In this document: piece by piece, positions 27,508-34,377 of the stretch | Numbering within the stretch: position 1 is the stretch's first letter | Layout: each line of letters opens with the position of its first letter | Notes under the pieces: model-generated | What the model was told of the DNA's origin: nothing | Database searches by the model: none | The model's input: only the letters and a program-made list of their open reading frames with translations | Translations under genes and position numbers: made by a program | NCBI GenBank assembly: GCA_016936455.1 | Contig: JAFGXV010000047.1 | Coordinates: 1 to 64,000 of the forward strand | Origin: Desulfuromonadaceae bacterium | GTDB taxonomy: Bacteria > Desulfobacterota > Desulfuromonadia > Desulfuromonadales > Desulfuromonadaceae | Reading direction: 5' to 3' | DNA: 64,000 nucleotides

Positions 27508-27617
27508 GCAATAAAGGGAAAAGCTGAAATCAGGAGCGTGCAGTTGCCCTGAGGCCAGACTGTGGCAAGCTCATACCAGGCCACCCACGCATGGCGCCGG
27601 TTCGAAAGGAGAAGCTG

Positions 27618-30266
<2,649 letters not shown>

Positions 30267-30336: not shown

Positions 30337-30514
30337 TTCCAGCAGCGCGGTTTGAGCGATGGCATGGGCTAAAATCGACCGGCCACATGAACATTAGAGA
30401 TCTTGAAAGAAAAAGGCGTTTTGTTTATCTTCAATTCCGGGTGCGTGGATCAGCGTGCGACAGCGCTCCTGCCGGCGCACCATGTTGCCACAGTCGTTAA
30501 TCCCTGCTCTGTAG

Positions 30515-30940
30515 GAACACCTGATTCATGTCAAGAAGGTCCATGAAAAAGACCTGAATGATGGCTGGGGTAAGGTTCCGTTACCAAATGCCCTTGACCG
30601 GAAATATCCGAAAGCACCCTGGGACTGGCGCTGGCAGTGGGTTTTCCCACAAGCAAACCGCTGGAAAAATAAAATCACCGGCGAAGAGGGGCGACATCAT
30701 GTACACGAAACGATTTTGCAACGAGCTGTCCGTGAAGCGGTTTCCCGTGCCGGTGTCGTCAAAAGAGTCGGGTGTCACACCTTTCGCCACTGTTTTGCAA
30801 CCCATTTGTTGGAAGCTGGGTACGATATTCGTACAATACAGGAATTGCTGGGACATAAAGATGTCAGTACGACCATGATTTACACCCATGTCCTGAACAA
30901 GGGAGGAAAAGGGGTGAAGGGCCCGATGGACGGTCTTTGA
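30515..30940 (+). pseudogene. intI: Integron integrase (IntI-type tyrosine recombinase), 5'-truncated remnant
   Basis: In-frame [140 protein letters not shown]; stop (TAG at 30512) just upstream; HxxR and catalytic Tyr kept, N-terminal half absent. Confidence 0.88.
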
Positions 30941-30946
30941 AATGGG

Positions 30947-30966
30947 TTTATGCAGCTCCGCATAAA
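30947..30966. repeat. Short hairpin downstream of intI remnant
   Basis: TTTATGC-agctcc-GCATAAA perfect inverted repeat 6 nt after the integrase stop codon. Confidence 0.5.
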
Positions 30967-30981
30967 ACGGGTATGAAATCG

Positions 30982-32730
30982 TTATGTTTTTTTAACATGC
31001 TGATTTCAAATAAATAAATTGAAGATCTAGTAAATTAGTAAAGAGATTTATACAGCTGATATCTTCTGTATTTTAAGTTTTATACAGAACTGTCTATTTA
31101 TAGTTGGGCCAATTGGAGATGAAAATGGATATCCTAGAATGGATCGATGTCGGTAAGATCTCAGCCGAACGAGACGATCAATTGTCAGAATACTTTTATG
31201 ATAATGGTGTTCTTACTCGCGTCATAAATAGCCGCTCCCTATTTCTGGTTCTTGGTCGAAAAGGGGCAGGGAAAACAGCTGTTTTCAAATATTTAAGTGA
31301 GAACCCGTCAAAATTCTTGGGGCGGGATGACCAGCTAATCTCACTCTCCTTTGAAGATTACAATTGGAATGTCCACTCTTTATTAATAAACCGCGATTCT
31401 GCTGAATCCCTTGCATATAAGCAATCATGGCGTTTCGTTCTTCTAGTCGAAGTAATCAAAGCGCATGTACAACACCTTGAAGCTTCTGGCGCAGTCATAC
31501 CTATGTCTTTAGCAAAGGCAAAAAAACTCTTACAGAAACTTTTTGATGAACCTATTCCGTCAATATATTCGATCGTTGGCAGGAAACTACTCTCATTATC
31601 ACGGCTCAGTCTGCCAAAAGGTGGACTCGATCTAGAATCTGGCGAGATTGACAGCCTAGAACTTAACGGAGGCGAAGTTTCCTTTGATACAGTTCAGAAA
31701 GACACATCGCTCCAGGATCGTCTCTCCCAAAATATTGAGAACATCATTCGTCTGCTGGAGAACGCAATTTCCCAATGTCAGCCACTTAAGCCCCGAATCT
31801 ATATAGCTTTTGATCGAGTTGATGAAGCTTGGGATGACATATCAGTGGAATCCTCAAAGAAGGTCATAGCTGGTCTCATAAGTGCCGCTGACTCAATCAA
31901 TGCTCAATATAATGCATCAATACGTCCCATCGTTTTTTTGCGAGAAGACATTTTTGATGTCCTCAGCATAAATGATGCAAACAAACTTAGGGAGGATTGT
32001 GGTGCGCTCTTGCACTGGGACCGGGATTCCTTGTTTAAACTGGTTCTTCAGCGTATCAATTTCTTCGCGGAACAAAACAAAGTAGAAAAGATCCAAGATT
32101 TGGATACCCTTTTCGACAAAAAGGAGATGAGGCAGCGAACACGACCATCAAACTACCTTCTTAAGCGAGCAATGATGCGCCCTCGCGACTTAATATGCTT
32201 CATGCGTCGTATTATCGACACGATGAAAGAAAGGGCTGCTGATCCCTTTGCTGAAACAACTGAAACCTTCACAGCTCTTCAAGCCGAGTTGATTTACGAC
32301 GCTGAACCCGGGTACTCGGAGTGGCTCAAGCAGGAGCTGTTAGATGAGTGGGCAGTACAGTTCCCTGATATTCGGAAACTGTTTGATGCCATCCAGAATA
32401 TCGGTTCCACGAACATCACCTGTGATCAACTGATAGGTGAGTTTGGCAAAATGGGAACTACACTCCAGCGTGGCGAGGCGCTAAGGCATTTAAGATTTCT
32501 TTTCGATAACTCAATTATTGGTTTCAAGTCTGGGGCGTCCACAATTTGGAAATATAAATGCTTCTACCCTTCTCAAGGATTTGTCGAGACGGATGACTAT
32601 CGGGTCCATGATGGCATAGTTCGATCCCTGAACCTGAAAGAGCCACGCGAACGAGAATAGAGCCCAACAAATGCGTAAACTCGGATTGCTTTTTCCGCTA
32701 GCGCTCCAAAAGCAACCGGTTACGCCAACG
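30982..32730 (+). mobile_element. Integron gene cassette carrying a P-loop ATPase gene
   Basis: Single-ORF unit bounded by CGTTAT at 30980-30985 and 32729-32734, ending in attC-like structure; AT-rich relative to flanks. Confidence 0.7.
31122..32660 (+). CDS. P-loop ATPase, probably Sll1717/FunZ-like family (candidate defence ATPase)
   Basis: MDILEWIDVGKISAERDDQLSEYF...LFLVLGRKGAGKTAVFKYL (Walker A), PRIYIAFDRVDEAWDD (Walker B-like), C-terminal wHTH-like region. ORF track begins at 31104; later Met codons at 31122 and 31128 are equally possible. Confidence 0.75.
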   Translation, partial: KMDILEWIDVGKISAERDDQLSEYFYDNGVLTRVINSRSLFLVLGRKGAGKTAVFKYLSENPSKFLGRDDQLISLSFEDYNWNVHSLLINRDSAESLAYKQSWRFVLLVEVIKAHVQHLEASGAVIPMSLAKAKKLLQKLFDEPIPSIYSIVGRKLLSLSRLSLPKGGLDLESGEIDSLELNGGEVSFDTVQKDTSLQDRLSQNIENIIRLLENAISQCQPLKPRIYIAFDRVDEAWDDISVESSKKVIAGLISAADSINAQYNASIRPIVFLREDIFDVLSINDANKLREDCGALLHWDRDSLFKLVLQRINFFAEQNKVEKIQDLDTLFDKKEMRQRTRPSNYLLKRAMMRPRDLICFMRRIIDTMKERAADPFAETTETFTALQAELIYDAEPGYSEWLKQELLDEWAVQFPDIRKLFDAIQNIGSTNITCDQLIGEFGKMGTTLQRGEALRHLRFLFDNSIIGFKSGASTIWKYKCFYPSQGFVETDDYRVHDGIVRSLNLKEPRERE

Positions 32731-32736
32731 TTATAT
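32662..32736 (+). other. attC recombination site (59-base element)
   Basis: R'' GCCCAAC; L'' GCGTAA(a)C(t)CGG(a)TTGCTTTT pairs with AAAAGCAA-CCG-G-TTACGC; R' GTTATAT; three extrahelical bases and unpaired spacer between R and L boxes. Confidence 0.88.
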
Positions 32737-33024: not shown

Positions 33025-34377
33025 TTACGCCTGATCAGCAGGATCGACGATTTCGCCGATGAGATCGTATTCCGTGGTGTCGGTGATGCGCAGCGCGACG
33101 ATGTCACCGACGTTGGCCTGGCCGTCGGTAATGTAGACCAGGCCGTCGATGTCCGGGGCCTGGCTGATGGCGCGGCCTTGCAGCAGCAGCTCGGTTTCCT
33201 CACTGTAGCCTTCCACCAGCACCGGCAGGCTGGTGTCGAGCAGTTGCCGGTGCTTGCGGAACGACACCCGGCTCTGGGCTTTCATCAGCTTGTCCTGCCG
33301 CCGTTTCTTGACGCTCTCGCTGATCTGGTTGTCCAGCGTGGCGGCCGCAGTGCCCTCCTCGCGCGAGTAGCAGAAGACGCCCACCCGGTCAAAATGGCCT
33401 TCTTCGACGAACTGCAGCAATTCGTTGAACTGCTCCTCGGTTTCACCGGGAAAGCCGACAATGAACGAGGTGCGAAGCGTCAGGTTGGGAATCCGACCGC
33501 GCAGCCGCCGGATCAGCTGGTCGATGCCGGCCCGGTCGATGCGGCGGTTCATCAGTGCCAGCTGCTCGTCGGCCACGTGCTGCAGCGGCAGGTCGAGGTA
33601 GGGGCAGATTTTTTTCTCGCTGGCCATCAGCTCGATCAGCTCGTCACTGATGCCGTCGGGATAGGCGTAGAGCAGGCGCAGCCAGCGCAGCTCCTCAATC
33701 TTGACCAGCTCCTTCAGCAGTGCTTCCAGGGTGGCCCCATCCTCGCGGTCACGGCCATAGGCGGTGATGTCCTGGGCGATGAGGTTGACCTCCCTGACGC
33801 CGCCGGCGACACGGCGCTGCACCTCGGTGACGATGGAGTCGATGGGCCGGGAGCGCAACGGACCGCGCAGCTTGGGGATGATGCAGTACGAACAGTTGTT
33901 GCTGCAGCCCTCGGCGATCTTGATGTAGGCGCTGTAAAAGGGCGAGGCCTGGACGCGTGGCGTATCGTGATGATAGAGGCTGTCGGGCTCCCCGATGCTG
34001 CAGTGTTGGCACCGCTCTCCCTGCCAGTGATCGATCAGTTCAACGATGCGCGCCGCATCACCGGTGCCCATGAACAGGTCCACCTCCGGCAGCTCGGTAG
34101 CCAGTTCCTCGCGGTAACGCTGGGGCAGGCAGCCGCAGACAATCAGCATGGAGCAGCGGCCTTCCTCCTTGAAACGCGCGGCTTCAAGGATGGTGTCGAC
34201 GGACTCTTCCTTGGCGTCGTTGATGAAGGCGCAGGTGTTGATGATGAGGATGTCGGCCTCGTGTTCATCGGTGGTGATGGTGAACCGGTCCGGTGGCAGA
34301 TGGCCGAGCATCACCTCGGCATCGACCAGATTTTTCGGACAGCCGAGGCTGATCAGGCAGACACGCTGGGTTTTCAC
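33025..34377 (-). CDS. rimO: Ribosomal protein S12 methylthiotransferase RimO
   Basis: 450 aa; [16 protein letters not shown], radical [19 protein letters not shown]-terminal TRAM. Confidence 0.97.

Follow-up and report, generated by a model that had tools for sequence, protein, structure and literature searches.

The window, as we call the whole 64,000-nucleotide stretch of Desulfuromonadaceae DNA that was analysed, carries an insert between clpB and rimO. The insert has a GC content of ~43%, compared with ~63% outside, and consists, from left to right, of an intI remnant, an attI site, a gene cassette and a fragment of a YoeB-type toxin gene (Table 1). Genome comparison placed clpB and rimO as close neighbours, free of the insert, in several genomes of the same bacterial family, and the left junction between chromosome and integron was set at 30475/30476 by aligning the window to the sister genome G001 and to integron copies in relatives. 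In G001, the clpB-rimO gap is broken at the same point by a different island of nearly 10 kb (L039:2881-12630), whose genes were judged by eye to include a lipase-like gene, a PP2C-like phosphatase gene and two protein-kinase-like genes; the gap appears to be a hot spot for insertion. On the right side of the window insert, the truncated YoeB-type toxin gene directly follows attC, and no antitoxin gene was seen adjoining it.

Table 1 Features of the integron insert and of its chromosomal flanks, in window coordinates
Feature	Position	Strand	Evidence or remark
clpB	27591..30266	+	left chromosomal neighbour, outside the cassette
intI pseudogene (integron integrase, C-terminal 155 residues)	30476..30937 (155-residue match 30473-30937)	+	TIGR02249; 5'-truncated, one internal TAG
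attI region, about 165 bases	30938..31103	+	conserved upstream of divergent first cassettes in relatives
Complete gene cassette, linear form	31104..32730	+	from G^TTGGGC of attI to G^TTATAT of attC; R'' and R' exactly complementary
Sll1717-family P-loop ATPase, 511 aa	31125..32660	+	NF047389 match; Walker A GRKGAGKT, Walker B FDRVDE, FLREDIF, RPRD motif
attC site	32662..32736	+	R'' 32662-32668, R' G^TTATAT at 32730; stem-loop in which one side has unpaired bases
YoeB-like toxin gene, 3' fragment, 44 aa	32763..32897	+	PF06769 E 4.2e-19, profile 40-80 of 80
rimO	33025..34377	-	right chromosomal neighbour, outside the cassette

The intI remnant, including its one TAG, matched TIGR02249 with 235 bits over profile positions 161-315, and its open part alone gave E 3.6e-38. 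Its direction of transcription is toward attI and the cassettes, as in the co-oriented integrons of Treponema (PMC3607928); in contrast to those, intI in the window has decayed to a pseudogene, and the family carries scattered attI copies. In the window genome, which is 79% complete, no further IntI passed the family cut-off, nor was the functional intI of a complete integron found there. Within attI, TTTATACAG direct repeats occupy positions 31047-31055 and 31079-31087, and a promoter-like match at 30992-31020 lies within chance expectation. An exact attI pattern occurred 14 times in 7 of the 14 family genomes, with no occurrence of a reversed control. Thirteen other attI copies from relatives align to about 31105 and diverge right after; since each matches as far as the same G^TT before running into a sequence of its own, we place the crossover at 31103, where the cassette side reads G^TTGGGC. 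The first-pass annotation had started the element at 30982, a start that this alignment rules out.

The R'' element of attC, GCCCAAC at 32662, is exactly the reverse complement of GTTGGGC at the cassette start, a match predicted for a cassette whose excised circle re-forms a full attC. The bottom strand of this rebuilt site folds at -21.2 kcal/mol compared with a shuffle mean of -10.6 (z -4.7), and no shuffle folded as well. Across the 14 attI sites, the same R''/R' rule is exact at nine and holds with one mismatch at four, the remaining site having no R''/R' partner before the contig end. The stretch thus has both an attI crossover at its start and an attC with R''/R' complementarity and a folding bottom strand, and together with the GC drop in the insert these data exclude chance as the source of the structure. 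We conclude that 31104-32730 is a true integron cassette in the first position of a decayed integron and that, as annotated earlier, a single ATPase ORF lies between the IntI remnant and attC.

In relatives, attI copies are scattered over several chromosomal places, and each is followed by a different cassette (L040-L052; genomes G001, G002, G003, G005, G007 and G008). They often retain just the 3' end of intI or lack the gene altogether: the sister genome G001, which is 100% complete, has three attI sites but lacks an IntI that passes the family cut-off. In G007 and G002, attI has an open, full-length IntI next to it. The first cassettes at other attI sites include genes for a PADLOC candidate ATPase (PDC-S59, E 1.8e-82), a SIR2 protein (E 6.7e-20, with ThsA and LmuA matches) and a HEPN-like protein that falls below the Pfam cut-off; these defence-like cassettes, found at L040:5685-7077, L049 (reverse strand) and L047:4964-5960, come from a small number of sites overall.

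Next, we considered the protein itself. Its most likely start is ATG 31125, giving 511 aa rather than the 518 aa proposed previously: homologues begin with MDIL or MSIL, which fits this codon, and GGAG at 31115-31118 lies six bases upstream of it. The alternative start for a 518-aa protein, TTG 31104, is ruled out by the attI alignment, which puts it within the recombination core. The protein matched NF047389, the NCBIfam model of the Sll1717 P-loop ATPase family, with 266 bits (cut-off 75) over profile positions 2-453 of 454, confirming its suggested assignment to this family, and both the Walker A motif GRKGAGKT and the Walker B-like IYIAFDRVDE are present as described. In an alignment of 21 family sequences, G47, G49, K50, D230, W298, P353 and R354 are invariant and D233 nearly so; the window ORF is intact and keeps every invariant residue. 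The protein matches the family model over its full length and carries all family motifs, but the tight, rare clade to which it belongs, whose members are 57-81% identical to it, shares ~16-27% identity with the other aligned Sll1717 members.

Comparisons beyond the family were less conclusive. A Pfam search of the window protein returned ORC-CDC6-like and AAA matches only below threshold (PF24389, 19.7 bits vs a cut-off of 27), and the PADLOC candidate PDC-M28C was matched below the level of membership, with 38 bits over residues 205-358 only. There was no clear relative among solved structures; the best match of the family profile was Cdc6/Orc1, weak at E 0.002 and with its signal distributed across the P-loop and the lid/wHTH region. 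An AlphaFold model built from three sequences had a mean pLDDT of 50, and its fold matches (E 3.8e-3) are leads only because the model is poor. Weak similarity to Cdc6/Orc1 and to the defence AAA/STAND ATPases RdrA and Avs4 extends over the ATPase and lid/wHTH region, but it is too weak for membership and the model is of low confidence. The C-terminal wHTH-like region noted at first pass is therefore plausible from the profile similarity, although the model is too poor to confirm it.

The clade of the window protein is rare and scattered. Homologues were found in a Chlorobiaceae MAG (81% identity over the whole length of the window protein), Desulfovibrio (65%), a conjugative Klebsiella plasmid (59%) and E. 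coli (57%), and a sample of 395 other genomes from its own phylum contained no close relative, the best full-length match there being 29%. Among 5,426 E. coli genomes, six carry a homologue. The gene stands alone between ttcA, the Rac prophage site, and an integrase remnant in all four copies inspected (L134, L135, L136 and L137), and IS1 splits four of the six E. coli copies. The Klebsiella plasmid copy lies near pifC and pifA, the latter a known phage-exclusion gene (PADLOC E 2.7e-284). No attC was seen, by eye, beside the Chlorobiaceae and Desulfovibrio homologues, and a search of annotated phages yielded a single match at 22%. Both in the window and in E. coli, the slot contains no intact gene other than that of the ATPase. 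Unrelated settings of this kind, with no fixed partner gene, argue for a self-contained function, and they fit, along with the attI/attC structure, the original description of a stand-alone mobile gene carried as an integron cassette. The homologues were thus not mostly core-chromosomal genes in a housekeeping context, but rare, patchy and located on a plasmid, in an integron or at the E. coli slot marked by an integrase, with L008 and L009, which are flanked by ordinary chromosomal genes, as exceptions.

A link to antiphage defence comes from DS-41, which the DefensePredictor study (PMC13092281) validated, along with other systems, by challenging E. coli with phages, and which is, like the window protein, an ATPase of the same superfamily. 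Against the DS-41 equivalog model NF053860, the window protein scored 60 bits (E 2.1e-16), far below the cut-off of 370, and it is therefore not a DS-41 member. Two E. coli plasmid proteins that do exceed the DS-41 cut-off (414.7 and 392.6 bits), however, also exceed the Sll1717 cut-off, which places validated DS-41 and the window protein in one family, even though DS-41 members share only 16-17% identity with the window protein and stand far from it in the tree. The earlier description of the gene as a candidate for an undescribed system was accordingly too strong, given that NCBIfam already holds the Sll1717 family and its defence-validated relative. Elsewhere in the family, the fusion protein L087 carries an N-terminal nucleoside deoxyribosyltransferase-like domain (29.7 bits vs a cut-off of 28.8), and L013 shows, as judged by eye, a nuclease-like motif in a C-terminal extension. 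Such fused extra domains would match the build of sensor-plus-effector systems; the window clade is without them. Downstream of the Klebsiella Sll1717-family ATPase, at L013:10453-11454, lies a gene for a 334-aa protein that opens with a RelB/DinJ-like domain.

The neighbourhoods of the wider family gave a more equivocal picture. We compared 160 neighbour proteins at 15 Sll1717-family loci with 136 proteins encoded in 15 regions picked arbitrarily from the same genomes. The neighbours of the family included AbiE, a type II restriction pair, SspH and several PDC candidates, and the control regions included type I restriction genes and SIR2-HerA. Defence neighbours at the 15 family loci were not clearly commoner than in the 15 arbitrary regions, and we claim no enrichment because the control regions also held restriction and SIR2-HerA systems. 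The proposed candidacy of the gene for defence is supported by a validated family member, DS-41, while defence-island enrichment of the wider family was not clear against these control regions.

Together, these data suggest that the 511-aa Sll1717 ATPase is probably a self-contained, horizontally moving, putative single-gene antiphage system. This assignment follows from the family it has in common with a validated antiphage protein, from its scattered distribution and from its position as a stand-alone gene in its slot; arguing against it are the low identity to DS-41 and the missed DS-41 cut-off, the chromosomal contexts of L008 and L009, the lack of a clear neighbour enrichment and the low pLDDT of the model.

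The remote Cdc6/Orc1 similarity, as well as the occurrence of homologues with integrase remnants, on a plasmid and in an integron, would also be accounted for if the ATPase served mobile elements, acting in an ORC/Cdc6- or TnsC/IstB-like manner in target selection, replication or the exclusion of competing elements and spreading as their cargo. We regard this as unlikely, as no transposase or replication gene accompanies the ATPase across its contexts and its slots in E. coli and the window contain no other intact gene. Slightly less probable still is a host regulator or stress-response ATPase unrelated to phages and captured by chance as a cassette. Most integron cassettes are without known function, no function has been published under the Sll1717 family name, and the neighbour comparison is compatible with such a role; yet the gene is rare, patchy, moved between phyla and IS1-broken in most of its E. 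coli carriers, features more in keeping with a costly, conditional gene than with a host regulator. That the cassette is an inactive relic of an integrase-less integron, neither expressed nor functional, is improbable: although both intI, a pseudogene, and yoeB, the gene that comes next, are truncated and the promoter-like match in attI is no better than chance, the ORF is intact in first-cassette position, keeps all the family-invariant residues and is 81% identical to the Chlorobiaceae protein over its full length.

For the favoured antiphage function, we propose that the ATPase would act as an ORC/Cdc6-like (STAND-type) ATP switch whose C-terminal region would bind DNA or a ligand. In the resting state the protein would be nucleotide-bound and inactive, a phage product or replicating phage DNA could serve as the trigger, and the output might be a block of phage replication or cell arrest. 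The output is the least certain step, since the window clade has no recognisable enzymatic effector domain; our preferred but tentative version is ATP-dependent engagement of phage DNA.

The comparison with other integrons bears on how such a gene may be maintained. In a published screen, ~10% of V. cholerae integron cassettes were antiphage (PMC12409362), and the antiphage cassettes of Vibrio and mobile integrons likewise consist of a small self-contained gene with its own attC in first position; the window differs from them in gene and host lineage, and in having an orphan attI without a working integrase. A speculative extension is that the locus holds, at an orphan attI, a minimal single-protein immune switch without a recognisable effector, and that the integrase-less sites of attI plus cassette, scattered around the genomes of this one bacterial family, hold largely immune genes and become fixed one-gene defence islands after integrase loss.

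If the gene protects its host, the DS-41 finding would extend to the widespread and so far unexplained main Sll1717 family. It would also represent a compact single-protein system that, being present in E. coli as well, is easy to test. By extension, a non-Vibrio integron lineage would be added to the evidence for cassettes as a reservoir of immunity, including at sites that have lost their integrase.
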